Shown here piece by piece: positions 3,818-59,793 of a stretch of 64,000 nucleotides of DNA. Location: the NCBI GenBank assembly GCA_017538365.1, contig JAFYIZ010000044.1:1-64000 (forward strand), given 5' to 3'. The first letter of the stretch is position 1, and every line of letters starts with the position of its first letter. The position numbers and the translations under genes are program-made. A model generated the notes under the pieces. It saw only the letters and a list, made by a program, of their open reading frames with translations, made no database searches and had not been told where the DNA came from. The stretch comes from a bacterium (GTDB lineage Bacteria > UBP6 > UBA1177).

Positions 3818-5335
3818 ATGGCTGAAAAAGTGAAAATAAATCCGAGAAAAGCGGGAATAATTCTTCATCCGACTTCTCTTCCAGGCCGCTGGGGAACAGG
3901 CGATTTCGGCAAGTCTGCTTACGATTTCGTCGATTTTCTTGCCGATTCGGGAATAAGAATCTGGCAGATACTTCCGCTCACTCCGACCGGCACTGACGGA
4001 TGCCCGTACAATTCTTTCAGCGCGTTTGCGGGAAACGAAATTCTGATCGACATCAACGAACTGATTGATAAAAAACTGGTCGAAATTCCCGAAGAAATTC
4101 CTGAATTTAACGATTACCGCGTCGATTACCCGAAAGTGATAAAATTCAAATCTGAAATTTTAGATAAGGCGGCTGAAAAATTCTATTCCGAAAGTAAAAA
4201 CGATGCTGATTTTGCTGCGTTCATGCAGGAAAATGCAGGCTGGATAAATGATTTCGCCTTGTTCAGAGTCCTGACTAAAGAATTTGAAGGAAAATCGTGG
4301 AAATTCTGGCCGGCTGAATTCAGAAACCGCGATAAAAACGCCCTCGAAAAGTTTGCATCATCGCATGAGCAGGAGCTTTTCCGCCACTGCTTTGCTCAAT
4401 ATCTTTTCTTTTCGCAGTGGAAAAAACTCAAAAATTACGCGAATGACAAAAATATCGAAATCATGGGCGACATTCCGATTTTCCTTTCGTTCGACAGCGC
4501 CGATGTCTGGGCAAACCAGCATATTTTCAAGATGACTGACGGGGTTATGTCGGAAGTCGCAGGCGTTCCGCCGGATTATTTCAGTGCCGACGGGCAGCTT
4601 TGGGGAAATCCGCTCTACGATTGGATTGTTCTTGAAAAGGAAGATTTTTCGTGGTGGATTGAGCGCTTTATGCACAATCTGAAACTTTACGACATTCTGC
4701 GCCTCGACCATTTCAGAGGCTTCAGCGCGTACTGGTCTGTTCCCGCAACAGAAACGACAGCAAAAAACGGTCATTGGGAAAAAGGACCGGGAACAAAACT
4801 TTTCGAAACGCTTTTCAAAAAAGCGGGAAAAATCCCGATCATTGCGGAAGACCTGGGCGATATTGACGCCGATGTAGTGAAACTTCGCGAAACTTGCGGA
4901 TTTGCCGGAATGAAAGTGCTCCAGTTTGCCTTTTACGAAGGGACTGACCACGAATTCCTTCCGCACAACTACACAAATACAAACTGCGTCTGCTACACCG
5001 GAACGCACGACAACGACACGACTGTCGGCTGGTTCTGGTCACTTTCAGACGGAACAAAATCTTTTGTAACTCACTATCTCGGAAGCAACGGCGACGATAT
5101 CCACTGGAAAATGATAAGACTCGCGATGTCATCTATCGCCGAAAAGGCGCTTTTCCCGCTTCAGGACGTGCTCGGATGGGGCGGTGACTGCCGCTTCAAT
5201 GTGCCCGGAACAACGGGGCCGCAGAACTGGACCTGGAGATTCCAGAAAGACTCCCTTACAAAATACCATTCCGATCTGCTGCGCGGCATAGTCGTCGCAT
5301 TCAACCGCGAATCCAAAACATCTTCAAAAGCGTGA
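3818..5335 (+). CDS. malQ: 4-alpha-glucanotransferase (amylomaltase)
   Basis: Transfers alpha-1,4-glucan segments between chains in cytoplasmic maltodextrin or glycogen metabolism (GH77). The 505-residue length matches the short bacterial MalQ form. Seen: the N-terminal LHPTSLPGRWGTGDFG, IWQILPLTPTG, CPYNSFSAFAGN, GDIPIFLSFDSADVWAN, the PPDYFSADGQLWGNPLYDW loop, LRLDHFRGF with the nucleophile Asp, IIAEDLGDI with the acid/base Glu, and GTHDNDT. Start ATG 3818 follows AGGTG. It lies directly behind the leuD-like gene and is followed by an iterated-nonamer intergenic element. No other glycogen genes are nearby. Confidence 0.96.
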   Translation: MAEKVKINPRKAGIILHPTSLPGRWGTGDFGKSAYDFVDFLADSGIRIWQILPLTPTGTDGCPYNSFSAFAGNEILIDINELIDKKLVEIPEEIPEFNDYRVDYPKVIKFKSEILDKAAEKFYSESKNDADFAAFMQENAGWINDFALFRVLTKEFEGKSWKFWPAEFRNRDKNALEKFASSHEQELFRHCFAQYLFFSQWKKLKNYANDKNIEIMGDIPIFLSFDSADVWANQHIFKMTDGVMSEVAGVPPDYFSADGQLWGNPLYDWIVLEKEDFSWWIERFMHNLKLYDILRLDHFRGFSAYWSVPATETTAKNGHWEKGPGTKLFETLFKKAGKIPIIAEDLGDIDADVVKLRETCGFAGMKVLQFAFYEGTDHEFLPHNYTNTNCVCYTGTHDNDTTVGWFWSLSDGTKSFVTHYLGSNGDDIHWKMIRLAMSSIAEKALFPLQDVLGWGGDCRFNVPGTTGPQNWTWRFQKDSLTKYHSDLLRGIVVAFNRESKTSSKA

Positions 5336-5386: not shown

Positions 5387-5449
5387 GCGGCGCATCACTA
5401 AGGACCTTAAGGACTCTAAGGACCCTAAAGTCCTTAAGGAAAGCGCCGC
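5387..5449. repeat. Iterated nonamer element A with GCGGCGC/GCGCCGC ends
   Basis: GCGGCGC (5387-5393) and GCGCCGC (5443-5449) bracket five consecutive 9-base units at 5397-5441: ACTAAGGAC, CTTAAGGAC, TCTAAGGAC, CCTAAAGTC, CTTAAGGAA. It fills the gap between malQ and the flavin/FeS membrane protein, whose ribosome site AAGGAG starts just after it. Element B at 59596-59655 has the same plan with five nonamers. Confidence 0.8.
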
Positions 5450-5465
5450 AATAAAAGGAGAAACT

Positions 5466-6602
5466 ATGAAAAAAAATTTCCGTGTTTTCAGAATTCTGAT
5501 TGTCGCAACAGCTTTTATCGCAGCATTTTTTATGTTGAAAGAGCCCGTTAAAACAAGCGAAGACTCATGCAATCTCGATAAGGATGCAGCCAAAAAGATT
5601 TTTGCGGCAGCCGAAAGTTTTAAAAAAATCGGAGAAGAATGTTTTTATGACGTTTTCGACAAAAATTCTGAAAATATCGGAAGAGTGCTTTACACCAAGC
5701 CGGACGAGAACTCAATTGCCGGATTCGGAGGCTCCCTGCGTGTCGTTGTCGGCATCGACCAAAAAGGAAATATCGCGGGAATTGAGCTCGGTGACAACTA
5801 CGAATCTGTCGGTTTTGTCGAGCGTGTCAGGAACGAAGGTTTCTTTGAAAAATGGAACGGCAAAAGCGTCGCTGAGGCGGCAAAAGCCGAAGTCGATACG
5901 GTAAGCGGCGCCACGATGTCAACGAGAGCGATAAAATCGATGGTTGCCCTCAATCTGTCGAAATACAGCGGCAGTGAATTTCAGGCAAACTCAACCGAAA
6001 CGGAGCCGCTCTGGCTTAAAATCATCGTTTTTCTGCTTCTCGCCTACTCGCTTTTCGCATTTTTCTTTCCGCAGAAAACGGCGAAATTCAGAATTTTCCA
6101 CCTCGCTGCACTTGCAATTGTTCTCGGTTTTATAGGAGGATTCGCGCTTTCGATTGAATCGTTCAAAAACTGGACTGTTTCAGCATCAATAGCACTGATT
6201 CCTGCTGTAATACTGGCTTTGGCAATACTTATGCCGCTTTTTACAGGTAAAAATTTCTACTGCACTTTTGTCTGTCCGTTCGGTGCGATACAGGAGCTTT
6301 TCGGAAAGATTCCTCTTCCGAAGAAGGATTTACCGGCGAAATTCATGAAGGGAGCCGCGGTTTTCAAAGTCGTTCTGCTTGTTGCGCTCTATATTCTGAT
6401 GATTTTCAAAATCGTGGCAGACTTCACGGTTTTTGAGCCTTTCAGCGCGTTCAAATTCGAGGCGGCAGCGCTTCCGTCCCTAATTATCGCCGCATTATTC
6501 CTGACCGTTTCGCTTTTTTTGAACCGTCCGTGGTGCAGACTAATCTGCCCGACGGGAACTATTTTGAATATGTTCAGAAAGAAAAACGGCGGAGAGATTT
6601 AG
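5466..6602 (+). CDS. Membrane flavoprotein with FMN-binding domain and 4Fe-4S-type cysteine motifs (NosR/NapH-like)
   Basis: A 378-residue protein: one N-terminal membrane anchor (about 8-24), an extracytoplasmic FMN-binding domain to about 165 with the flavinylation motif VSGATMST (the SGAT Thr is the usual covalent FMN site, attached by ApbE), then about five membrane helices carrying FYCTFVCPFGAIQ and PWCRLICPTGTI. This fused order of FMN domain, membrane helices and two CxxxCP motifs is the plan of NosR, NapH and PceC-type electron-transfer proteins. It probably moves electrons across the membrane; donor and acceptor are unknown and no reductase gene is adjacent. The start has AAGGAG. It ends 3 bases from the convergent SGNH gene. 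Confidence 0.82.
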   Translation: MKKNFRVFRILIVATAFIAAFFMLKEPVKTSEDSCNLDKDAAKKIFAAAESFKKIGEECFYDVFDKNSENIGRVLYTKPDENSIAGFGGSLRVVVGIDQKGNIAGIELGDNYESVGFVERVRNEGFFEKWNGKSVAEAAKAEVDTVSGATMSTRAIKSMVALNLSKYSGSEFQANSTETEPLWLKIIVFLLLAYSLFAFFFPQKTAKFRIFHLAALAIVLGFIGGFALSIESFKNWTVSASIALIPAVILALAILMPLFTGKNFYCTFVCPFGAIQELFGKIPLPKKDLPAKFMKGAAVFKVVLLVALYILMIFKIVADFTVFEPFSAFKFEAAALPSLIIAALFLTVSLFLNRPWCRLICPTGTILNMFRKKNGGEI

Positions 6603-21761: not shown

Positions 21762-23108
21762 TTATTCGCCGCTGTCTGTATCCGTGTCTGTATCCGTGTC
21801 TGCTTCCGTGTCTGCTTCCGTGTCTGCTTCCGTGTCTGCTTCCGTGTCTGCTTCTGTGTCTGCTTCCGTGTCTGCATCGGTGTCAGCGTCGGTGTCTGCA
21901 TCGGTATCCGTAGCAGTGTCTGCATCGGTGTCAGCGTCGGTGTCTGCATCGGTGTCTGCATCGGTGTCTGCATCGGTGTCAGCGTCGGTGTCTGCATCGG
22001 TGTCTGCATCGGTGTCTGCGTCGGTGTCTGCATCGGTGTCTGCGTCGGTGTCTGCATCGGTGTCAGCGTCGGTGTCTGCATCGGTATCAGCGTCGGTGTC
22101 GGTACCTTCTTTTGCTACGCACTCTTTGGTCTTTTTGTCTTTCTCGTAACCTTCTGCGCAGTCACAAGTGTTCTTCTTTTCGTTGTAAACTTCTGTTGTT
22201 GCATCACATTCAGCTTTGCAGAAGTAACCGGTAAGTTTGGTTTCATCTGCCGTGCAGACTGTTCCTTCTTCACATTCGATAACATCGCAGAGATCTTCCG
22301 GACATTCAACTTCTTTCTGCTGCTGGTTTTCGATTGCTATGCAGGAGCAAGCTTCATAACCCTGCTGTTCATAAGCTTCAGCAATTTCTTCCGGAGCGAT
22401 GATGACAGCTGCATCGATACCAAGTTTGATTTTCTTGCCGGCAGCAACAGTGCTGTCATCCATGCAGTACTGGAATCTTCCTGCAGAGATATTGCCGTTT
22501 GCAGCGCTCATACCAACCGTGCAGGTTTTTACCATGTTGATCATGTAGTTTGCGCCAAGAACATAAGTCATTTCGTTGATGTAAGCAACTGTCGGACCGA
22601 AATCAGCGATTTCACCGCTTTCAACTTCTGCCAAATCAGCTTCGGTAAGAATAACCTGAGCTTCTACGCCGTAAGCGATAGCAGCAGAATTTTGATCAAC
22701 CAGAGCCTGGTAAATAGAATCGGTAACGATTGCCTTGGTGCCATTGGTAAGTTCTGCAGCCATAAGATAGGTACCTGCATTGAAGGAAACATTCGGATAA
22801 GCTTCATCATAGAAAGAAGCTTTGAGCATGTCAGCTGTTTCTGCTTCGCTCGGGGTCTGCAAAGTGCCGTAGCCGTTGATCAAAACATAGCTGTCATAAT
22901 TTGATGTTTTGAAAGAGTCGTCGATTTTGCAGGTGTCGGTAGGCGTTGTGTCGCCGGTGTCGCTGGTGTCAGTGTCGGTGTCACTGGTGTCAGTGTCGGT
23001 AGACGTGTCGGTGTCGCCAGTGTCCGTGTTGTCTTTTTTGTCGCCGCCGCAGCTGACAACAAAAAGAGCGAAAACGATCGCTACGAGAGCAAGTGTGAAT
23101 TTCTTCAT
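21762..23108 (-). CDS. Lipoprotein with Asp/Thr-rich linker and long DTDA/DTEA repeat tail
   Basis: 448 residues. A signal peptide with lipobox VVSC (Cys20) is followed by an acidic Asp/Thr linker (about 25-55), a globular region of unknown family to about 265, a Cys-rich EGF-like region (CSCIAIENQ ... [18 protein letters not shown] ... [17 protein letters not shown]), and a C-terminal tail of about 112 residues made almost only of DTDA and DTEA repeats. The tail is encoded by a 12-base tandem repeat. It has GGAGAT before the start, its own promoter and a strong terminator, so it is a single-gene unit. A surface lipoprotein with an extended, strongly acidic, possibly calcium-binding tail is likely; function unknown. 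Confidence 0.85.
21765..22100 (-). repeat. 12-base tandem repeat tract coding the DTDA/DTEA tail
   Basis: On the plus strand the unit TGCATCGGTGTC (variants TGCGTCGGTGTC, AGCGTCGGTGTC) repeats through about 21880-22100 and a variant unit GCTTCCGTGTCT through about 21800-21870. An interruption CGGTATCCGTAGCAGTGTC lies near 21902. Every unit is a multiple of three, so copy-number change would lengthen or shorten the tail without frameshift. Confidence 0.9.
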
Positions 23109-28331: not shown

Positions 28332-28370
28332 TTTTTTACCCTTTAAAATTCAATTAAATAAACAAAAACC

Positions 28371-28418
28371 GGCGGAAGTTAATGAAAAGAAGATTTTTTG
28401 TCAAAATTTTTTTCCGCC
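28371..28418 (-). promoter_or_regulatory. Promoter bracketed by an inverted repeat, for the coiled-coil gene
   Basis: On the minus strand TTGACA (28399-28404), 17 bases and TAACTT (28376-28381) form a good promoter 45 bases before the ATG at 28331. GGCGGAA (28371-28377) and TTCCGCC (28412-28418) are a perfect 7-base inverted pair that overlaps the -10 box and flanks the -35 box. It may be an operator or the remnant of a GC-bounded intergenic element. Confidence 0.55.
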
Positions 28419-28420
28419 GC

Positions 28421-32224: not shown

Positions 32225-32322
32225 ACAGTCACAGGCACTACTTTTTGCGCCGACTTGCAAGAAAAATGAAATAAATTTAATATGCCGCTTGTTTCTGGTT
32301 CGGTTTTTTGACGGAGGGTTAT

Positions 32323-33300
32323 ATGGAATTCGGAGAATTGAATGAAAAAATCAGAGCCCACGCACTGACGATAAACGCTCTGAAATCGGAAATTTCTAAA
32401 GTTATAGTCGGTCAGGAAGAGATGGTCGAAGCGCTCATCATGGGAATGATCGGCGAAGGTCACATTCTGCTTGAAGGTGTTCCAGGACTTGCAAAAACGA
32501 CTGCGGTAAAGGCGTTTGCAGACTCGACAGACCTCGATTTTCAGAGGATACAGTTCACTCCCGATCTGCTTCCCGCAGATATAATCGGAAGCAGGATCTT
32601 CAACATGACTGAGCACAATTTCGAGACGAAAAAAGGTGTCATTTTCTCGAATGTCATCCTTGCCGACGAGATAAACCGTGCACCGGCAAAAGTTCAGTCG
32701 GCTCTTCTTGAAGCAATGCAGGAGAGACAGGTAACTATCGGCGGCGACACTTTTAAACTTCCCGACCCGTTCATCGTTCTGGCAACACAGAACCCGCTTG
32801 AGCAGGAAGGAACATATCCGCTTCCCGAAGCGCAGGTCGACAGATTCATGTTCAAAGTGCTTATCGACTATCCGACACCTGATGAAGAGCTTAAAATAAT
32901 TGAAAAATTCGAAAGACGCGAACTTACGCAGAAACTCAACAAAATCCTGAATAAATCTGAAATAAAGGAGTGGCAGGAAATCGCAAAACAGATTTACACC
33001 GACGACAGAATCAAAAAATATGTTATTTCAATTGTTTCGGAAACGAGACAACCGAAAGAAAAGGCTATCGCACAGCTCATTGATGTCGGAGCAAGCCCTC
33101 GTGCAAGCATTTTCCTCATTCTTGCAGGCAGGATCCGCGCATTCATCGAAGGAAGAACCTTTGTTACGCCTGAAGACATCAAAGAAGTCGCATATCCGGT
33201 GCTCCGCCACAGAATCATCCCGTCATTCGAAGCCGAAGCCGAAAAAATCTCAACCGACAAAATCATCGCCGACCTCTTGAATAGAGTTGAGGTTCCGTAG
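32323..33300 (+). CDS. MoxR-family AAA+ ATPase
   Basis: 325 residues. AAA_3 signatures are EGVPGLAKTT (Walker A), RIQFTPDLLPADIIGS, VILADEINRAPAKVQSALLEAMQERQVTI (Walker B and MoxR loop), ATQNPLEQEGTYPLPEAQVDRFMFK and the C-terminal lid with DVGASPRAS and YPVLRHRI. MoxR proteins act as chaperones for assembly of partner complexes, usually with DUF58 and VWA proteins encoded beside them. None is adjacent here; the next gene is cmk after a 196-base gap with an octamer element. The start ATG 32323 has GGAGGG; an in-frame TTG at 32308 precedes that site and is rejected. Confidence 0.94.
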   Translation: MEFGELNEKIRAHALTINALKSEISKVIVGQEEMVEALIMGMIGEGHILLEGVPGLAKTTAVKAFADSTDLDFQRIQFTPDLLPADIIGSRIFNMTEHNFETKKGVIFSNVILADEINRAPAKVQSALLEAMQERQVTIGGDTFKLPDPFIVLATQNPLEQEGTYPLPEAQVDRFMFKVLIDYPTPDEELKIIEKFERRELTQKLNKILNKSEIKEWQEIAKQIYTDDRIKKYVISIVSETRQPKEKAIAQLIDVGASPRASIFLILAGRIRAFIEGRTFVTPEDIKEVAYPVLRHRIIPSFEAEAEKISTDKIIADLLNRVEVP

Positions 33301-33406
33301 CGGCGCAGAAAATACCGTGATCTCGGAATCACGGGATCTCGTGATCTCGAAGCGCCGCAATAATACCGGAATCTCGTGATCTCGAAATCCCGAAAGTGGC
33401 GGCGCC
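33300..33406. repeat. Iterated octamer element C, two modules sharing a GC-rich boundary
   Basis: Module one: GCGGCGC (33300-33306), four 8-base units at 33316-33347 (CGTGATCT, CGGAATCA, CGGGATCT, CGTGATCT), then GCGCCGC (33352-33358). Module two continues from that boundary with CGGAATCT, CGTGATCT, CGAAATCC (33367-33390) and closes with GGCGGCGCC (33398-33406). It starts on the last base of the moxR stop codon and fills much of the gap to cmk. Confidence 0.8.
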
Positions 33407-45805: not shown

Positions 45806-45836
45806 TTTTCACTCCTGAAAAAATTAAGTCTGGCTA

Positions 45837-45864
45837 TTCTAATAATATAAGGAAAAATTTCAAC
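45837..45864 (-). promoter_or_regulatory. Promoter for the Cys-rich lipoprotein
   Basis: On the minus strand TTGAAA (45859-45864), a 16-base spacer and TAGAAT (45837-45842) lie 31 bases before the ATG at 45805, just behind the pal stop. Confidence 0.6.
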
Positions 45865-45893
45865 TATTCGGGGAAAATTTTCTACCGCAGGAA

Positions 45894-57086: not shown

Positions 57087-57181
57087 CGCCGCCGCATTTT
57101 TGGCCACCGTCGAGATCCCGGTCGCCGCCGTCGAGATCCCGGGATTCCGAGATCACGTGATCACGACAAGATTCGGCGGCC
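57087..57181. repeat. Iterated octamer element D between buk and the lipid kinase
   Basis: CGCCGCCGC (57087-57095) and CGGCGGCC (57174-57181) bracket a 15-base direct repeat CCGTCGAGATCCCGG (57107-57121, 57128-57142) and four 8-base units at 57132-57163: CGAGATCC, CGGGATTC, CGAGATCA, CGTGATCA. It ends exactly at the buk stop codon and fills the gap to the lipid kinase. Confidence 0.8.
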
Positions 57182-58551: not shown

Positions 58552-59472
58552 TTAATTAGCGTTTACTGTGATTCCAAGAACGAGTGAATTGATCTTCGCC
58601 CTTGCATCGTCTGCACGCGAACTCAAAAGAACGGGAACTTTTGCTCCGACGATTACGTGACCTGTCTGAGCGCCGCCCCAGTAGTGGACGAGCTTGCCGA
58701 GAACGTTTCCGCTTTCGATGTTCGGGAAAATAAGGATGTCTGCGCATCCCGCCATAACGGAATTGATACCTTTTACTTTTGCAGCGTATTCCGAAATGAC
58801 GTTGTCAATTGCGTAAGGTCCTTCGAGGTAAGCGTTGATGTCGTCAAGCTCGCCTTCAGCCTTCATTCTCTGGATCTCTGCCGCGTCAACAGTCGACTGG
58901 ATCCTCGGAGAAACGGTTTCGATCGCCGAAATGTAAGCGACTCTCGGTTTTTCGAAGCCGAGTTTGTGGAAAACATTGACTGCACCGCGGGTCATCTCTA
59001 TCTTCTGCTCAAGTGTGGGAAGCGGGATTATGCCGCCGTCCATGATGCCGACAAGACGCTTGTTCTCGCCTTTTGAAAGCGGATCTTCATACATCAGGAT
59101 ATCGCTGACGACAGCTGCAGCCTTGAGTCCGTTCTCTTTTCTGAAAACCGCTTTCATGATCTGCGCGGTCTCGACGCTTCCCTTCAGAAGGATGTTGACC
59201 CTGCCGTCTGCCGCGTAATCAGCCGCTTTTGAGCAGCTTTCAACGTTGTCTGCGCACGGAACTATCTCGACTTTGCCTTCAAGAACAGTGCCTTCAATCA
59301 GGTGTTTTATCTTTTCTTCGTTTCCGAAAAGAACCGGAACCGCGAGGTTTTCAACGACCATGTCTATTGCAGCTTCGACTGCGACCGGCTTATCGGCGCC
59401 GACAACCGCAACGACCTGCTTTTTTTCCATTTTCTTAACGAAATCAATCATTTCATCAAAACTTCTGAACAT
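58552..59472 (-). CDS. ptb: Phosphate butyryltransferase
   Basis: Exchanges CoA for phosphate on butyryl-CoA (or another short acyl-CoA). 306 residues of the phosphate acetyl/butyryltransferase family: VAVVGADKPVAVEAA, LLKGSVETAQIMKAV, YISAIETVSPRIQSTVDAAE, and GPYAIDNVISEYAAKVKGINSVMAGCADILIFPNIESGN. First gene of ptb-DUF493-buk. GGAGAG precedes the ATG. An acyl group other than butyryl (such as isobutyryl) is possible. Confidence 0.93.
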   Translation of the reverse strand: MFRSFDEMIDFVKKMEKKQVVAVVGADKPVAVEAAIDMVVENLAVPVLFGNEEKIKHLIEGTVLEGKVEIVPCADNVESCSKAADYAADGRVNILLKGSVETAQIMKAVFRKENGLKAAAVVSDILMYEDPLSKGENKRLVGIMDGGIIPLPTLEQKIEMTRGAVNVFHKLGFEKPRVAYISAIETVSPRIQSTVDAAEIQRMKAEGELDDINAYLEGPYAIDNVISEYAAKVKGINSVMAGCADILIFPNIESGNVLGKLVHYWGGAQTGHVIVGAKVPVLLSSRADDARAKINSLVLGITVNAN

Positions 59473-59595: not shown

Positions 59596-59655
59596 GGCCG
59601 CCACCTTAAGGACTTTAAGGACCTTAAAGACCCTAAGGACCTTAGCGACGCGGCC
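59596..59655. repeat. Iterated nonamer element B with GC-rich inverted ends
   Basis: GGCCGC (59596-59601) and GCGGCC (59650-59655) bracket exactly five 9-base units at 59605-59649: CTTAAGGAC, TTTAAGGAC, CTTAAAGAC, CCTAAGGAC, CTTAGCGAC. It has the same plan as element A at 5387-5449, in the gap between ptb and the tRNA genes. Confidence 0.85.

Positions 59656-59716: not shown

Positions 59717-59793
<77 letters not shown>

Follow-up and report, generated by a model that had tools for sequence, protein, structure and literature searches.

Element A, a clamped array of five nonamers at positions 5387-5449 of a 64,000-nucleotide stretch of bacterial DNA (the window), is best read, with a little more confidence than doubt, as a copy of a small, non-autonomous, dispersed intergenic hairpin repeat of the REP/MITE type. 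The likeness to REPs and MITEs is one of working only, and membership in neither class is claimed because defining features of both were tested and did not hold.

Elements A and B and the nonamer family

Element A was delimited using its sequence, its fold and the whole-genome pattern, and its clamp arms from the sequence and that pattern. The initial annotation had placed five nonamers of pattern NYTAAGGAC between GCGGCGC and GCGCCGC, and the sequence agrees, with units 4 and 5 departing from the pattern. Element B was described there as having an identical plan and unit count; it does have five units, in other variants, on the same plan, and its clamp is GGCCGC/GCGGCC instead. The two elements are composed as follows.

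5387-5449, plus strand: element A, nonamer-body family FI, GC clamp, five nonamers and GC clamp, laid out as GCGGCGC-ATC-five nonamers-A-GCGCCGC
5387-5393, plus strand: 5' clamp arm of element A, GCGGCGC
5397-5441, plus strand: five nonamers of element A, in order ACTAAGGAC CTTAAGGAC TCTAAGGAC CCTAAAGTC CTTAAGGAA
5443-5449, plus strand: 3' clamp arm of element A, GCGCCGC
59596-59655, plus strand: element B, family FI, laid out as GGCCGC-CAC-CTTAAGGAC-TTTAAGGAC-CTTAAAGAC-CCTAAGGAC-CTTAGCGAC-GCGGCC

The neighbours of element A are a 4-alpha-glucanotransferase gene (3818-5335) and an FMN-binding/Fer4_5 gene (5466-6602), and the element ends about 8 bases upstream of the ribosome-binding site of the latter. 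Element B is flanked by tRNA-Asp (59717-59793, minus strand) and a phosphate acetyl/butyryl transferase gene (58552-59472, minus strand); protein assignments at both sites were made with Pfam. A and B are members of two FI subfamilies in a comparison of 17 copies, which is why their unit variants differ.

Copies of FI were enumerated through pattern and model searches, with simple ORF calls near sites, in the genome of the window (G000, a 2.32 Mb MAG of 49 contigs, 97.6% complete) and in its genus-mates. A double-unit pattern allowing up to 2 mismatches matched 8 times in the window (0.08 expected from shuffles) and 35 times in the whole genome (2 in the reversed control). The pattern is thus far above chance and is not restricted to the two copies of the initial annotation. 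Double units fall at about 12 FI sites in G000, every one intergenic, and the view of a real intergenic element recurring across the genome with a clamp-array-clamp anatomy was upheld. A model built from FI copies gave 21 matches in G000, 33 in the genus-mate G014 and 0-4 in each of the remaining genus-mates, counts that often include one element twice, once per strand.

The 17 FI copies, drawn from two species, have a common unit order, and unit 2 is TTTAAGGAC in 14 of them; the copies are paralogous and such counts are therefore not independent. Independent slippage at each site is unlikely, as had been proposed, because the 17 copies keep the order of differentiated units: the FI sites hold copies of a single ordered element. 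The accompanying proposal of a unit count fixed at five was not sustained: five is the mode (11 of 17 copies) in a range of 3-7, with 3, 4, 6 and 7 also present. Internal units are duplicated in some copies, for example three consecutive TTTAAGGAC in G014 (C19). Total length is steadier than unit count (mostly about 57-63 bp, octamer-bodied copies included), and most five-unit copies have 3-4 bases between the clamp end and unit 1.

Two other repeats were observed in the window. At 28370-28419 an inverted repeat, CGGCGGAAG...TTCCGCCG, lies in the gap between two minus-strand genes and has no array within it, and at 21773-22100 a 12-base repeat is present 27 times inside a long minus-strand ORF (21762-23108), where it probably encodes an acidic (Asp-rich) linker of a surface lipoprotein.

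Hairpin anatomy and the bodies behind the clamp

Three features were missed in the initial annotation: the near-palindromic body, the flanks as stem arms and the other bodies behind the same clamp. Read in the register TTAAGGACC, with reverse complement GGTCCTTAA, the FI array pairs as AAGG-A-CCTT with one mismatch per nine bases, so that the body is near-palindromic, and its two flanks pair with each other as a GC-only stem. Either strand is predicted to fold into a single long hairpin, with z from -2.7 to -6.5 for the tested copies. By inspection of the copies, the clamp arms remain complementary while the clamp sequence varies among copies; an automatic consensus fold contained no compensatory changes in the body, and missed the clamp since the arms were misaligned.

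A second body, family FII, is built from the octamer CGNNATNN and has the clamp, the length of about 60 bp and the roughly five-unit plan of FI. Three copies are found in the window.

33300-33358, plus strand: FII element with the same clamp and a CGNNATNN body, starting at the stop codon of gene 32308-33300; orthologue in G009 (C117)
33352-33405, plus strand: second FII element, having a clamp arm in common with the preceding one; missing at the orthologous site of G009
57124-57180, plus strand: FII element with clamp GCCGCC/GGCGGC

Chaining of this kind, in which neighbours share one clamp arm, is seen in some FII copies. A search with GCGSCGC-N30-60-GCGSCGC returned 22 matches in G000, 19 in G009 and 14 in G014 (4-5 in the reversed control), and 2-8 in other genus-mates (control 1-4), with no excess in high-GC relatives. 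A few of the matches are coding sequence; those containing arrays are mostly about 57-63 bp long and have a nonamer (FI) or octamer (FII) body. Triple FII octamers were found in 15 of 15 genomes of the genus, at 10-123 per genome and 0 in every reversed control, and a third octamer, CGTNACGN, has up to 68 matches in G011 and none in G000. Bodies of different unit families thus stand behind one clamp.

In one clamped element of normal length (L364, G009 C2:36780-36841) the body consists of directly repeated TAGGG nonamers, for which the clamp encloses no complementary partner. Finely tuned pairing of the stem was rejected, as the fold was not weakened by permuting FI units or the variable letters of FII; on these predictions the skeleton would allow pairing in any register, with nothing finer visible. 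FII units retain CG and AT at intervals of four bases and vary at the remaining four positions; in 125 units with CG and AT intact, those variable positions are asymmetric in a palindromic manner (no C at positions 3-4 except in one case, almost no G at positions 7-8).

The unoptimised long-range pairing, the spacing and palindromic asymmetry of FII, the L364 body and the absence of strand preference in FI would all suit iteron-like protein-binding arrays, in which a dimer that binds DNA or RNA would recognise every 8-9 bp unit as a palindromic site, about five such sites would follow one another, the clamp would be a boundary and specificity would shift between species. We consider this explanation unlikely: wholly different units (FI, FII and CGTNACGN) occur at one site within the genus, so that repeated switches of specificity would be needed, no common function was seen among neighbouring genes, and no candidate protein was identified.

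Orthologous sites and gene context

Genes beside eleven FI sites were used to fetch the orthologous intergenic stretches from up to 14 genus-mates. At C31 a nonamer element is present in G000 and G014, CGNNATNN-type arrays in G001 and G004 and ACGACG-type arrays in G003, G006 and G012, other species being empty. The site of element B holds FI in G000, a clamped octamer array in G001 and CGTTACG arrays in G002, G006 and G012, and is short and empty in G009, G011 and G014. FI in G000 corresponds to FII in G014 at C37 and to FII in G009 at C47:69k, the latter site being empty in G006 and G014; empty sites in relatives were thus found at B and C47:69k, and also at C5. An FI-like element is retained at C39 in G000, G002, G006 and G009. 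One FII copy is identical across 62 bases between G000 and G014, with flanks about 86% identical, and other inherited FII copies keep the skeleton while the remaining letters change and extra clamp-sharing copies are added. For the element A locus the only comparable syntenic sites were those of the distant G005 and G010, where no element separates the two genes, which abut. By these comparisons the elements are gained and lost, and some are inherited at the same sites in related species.

In a comparison with five relatives, other arrays turned up at 8 of 11 FI sites and at 2 of 8 control sites where G000 has no array (p = 0.07), which is no more than suggestive of FI sites being preferred sites (hot spots) for other arrays. 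Three further observations were made at orthologous loci: a control site by window positions 45806-45893 has an FII array in 5 of 5 relatives tested and none in G000; the G004 orthologue of C44 (L300) is a long unclamped intergenic array of TTAGATTCC nonamers at a site that is empty in several relatives; and a further dispersed intergenic hairpin, GAGACGTGTCAGGTCACGTCTC, occurs with close variants at orthologous loci of G004, G006, G008, G012 and G014.

The arrays of relatives at those control sites, the several unit families with species dialects and the unit duplications are what would be expected if replication slippage and template switching built and corrected near-palindromic arrays as a neutral by-product, with no copying between loci and no function. 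This explanation is held to be rather improbable, given a unit order and clamp common to unlinked loci, a narrow length range and a copy with 62 unchanged bases in two species despite about 14% divergence of its flanks. More doubtful again is a modular system in which intergenic acceptor sites would be recognised by their conserved GC clamp and a dedicated activity would write or exchange the array of about five units inside it, each species filling the same sites with self-complementary units of 8-9 bases in a dialect of its own.

Where both neighbours of an FI site were identified, tRNA genes included, the arrangements comprise 3 convergent, 3 divergent and 5 co-directional cases, and hence FI has no strand or context preference. 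FII copies are mostly at gene 3' ends, some immediately after the stop codon, and a ribosome-binding site follows within a few bases of element A, the C47:69k copy and a G014 copy at C5. Least probable of the alternatives is that the elements, with their unusual stem, are intrinsic (Rho-independent) terminators or transcription insulators, for all the stable GC-based intergenic stems, the FII copies right after stop codons and the position of element B between a tRNA and the next gene, since several FI copies are located between divergent genes or just before ribosome-binding sites and T-runs follow the stem in 5 of 84 flanks (15% nearby), with none detected at element A. T-runs being rarer after the stem than nearby, the elements are not ordinary intrinsic terminators, and that candidate was rejected. 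A known structured RNA family was likewise rejected, as the only window matches to Rfam at the gathering threshold were two tRNAs and no model covers element A or B. Viral origin was rejected with 4 IMG/VR matches (23 for the reversed pattern).

Comparison with known repeats and proposed origin

REPs, as described in PMC3733652 and PMC3116915, are short intergenic palindromes of 20-40 bp that form hairpins, exist in many copies and in several families per genome, sometimes as neighbouring opposite-oriented pairs, and bear a GTAG or CGTC tag, the GTAG type being associated with a RAYT transposase; they are mostly downstream of genes (PMC3733652). The elements described here resemble REPs, BIMEs and REPINs in being palindromic, intergenic and dispersed, and FII resembles REPs in its location mostly downstream of genes. 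They differ in their length of about 60 bp and in what the clamp encloses, a tandem array of about five units, each of 8-9 bases and of varying family. By inspection of 41 listed elements with flanks, no tetranucleotide such as GTAG or CGTC is common to either end. Mobilisation by a RAYT-type transposase was rejected, as PF01797 had no match, and hence no Y1 transposase was found, in G000 (97.6% complete) or G014 (98%).

Like MITEs, the elements are short, non-coding, bounded by inverted repeats, scattered in intergenic regions and present or absent at orthologous sites. Terminal inverted repeats were found as GC-only arms of 6-9 bp, which, unlike those of MITEs, vary among copies and enclose internal tandem arrays, and no target-site duplication was found (direct-repeat score 41, against 50 +/- 8 for shuffled flank pairs).

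In a literature search for the unit sequence or the plan, the nearest parallel found was the TAACTGA family of direct repeats, which are intergenic and occur in Beggiatoaceae, Cyanobacteria and some Bacteroidetes (PMC4679880). Those are uniform heptamers with no predicted fold, mostly just before start codons (PMC4679880), whereas the present units are diverged near-palindromic nonamers or octamers, enclosed by a clamp and found in all gene contexts. The patchy distribution reported for TAACTGA repeats (PMC4679880) is similar to that of the nonamers. Other lineages, chiefly Bacteroidales MAGs of rumen and gut origin, also have exact triple nonamers, and among the matches listed GC clamps occur only in G014 contigs. 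General presence in Bacteroidales was not found, exact triple units being present in 2 of 295 genomes in an even sample of one order, and one of the two was the search centre itself. Tidjanibacter sp. RGIG9066 (G099, a 1.9 Mb Bacteroidales MAG) has 141 exact double TAAGGAC nonamers (reversed control 0), in arrays (L062, L106, L131 and others) that lack clamps and are accompanied by other short repeats, CAATTGTCAATTTTCAATT for example.

Under the dispersed-hairpin-repeat reading, copies would have spread as whole elements through a within-genome copying process, and units would afterwards have been duplicated or lost via slippage or unequal exchange. Transcribed copies may be passive obstacles, stable and double-stranded, in leaders and at the ends of genes, contributing 3'-end protection, leader stability or spacing, and would be neither terminators nor operators of one regulon. 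Such an mRNA-barrier role is the most likely function and is offered tentatively, with more doubt than confidence; for FI a role at mRNA 3' ends is weakened because its sites have no strand or context preference. Against the dispersed-hairpin-repeat reading stand the missing Y1/RAYT transposase and target-site duplications, the pairing that is not finely tuned and the L364 body without complementarity.

Small dispersed repeats are usually defined by conserved sequence. What is conserved here is mainly a plan, namely a GC clamp, a length of about 60 bp and about five near-palindromic units, and unit sequence can differ by species at one site. The compared orthologous sites form a natural series in which the origin, spread and change of body of such elements can be studied, as can the question of whether hairpin or unit is under selection, and the elements are usable as markers for an uncultured gut lineage.
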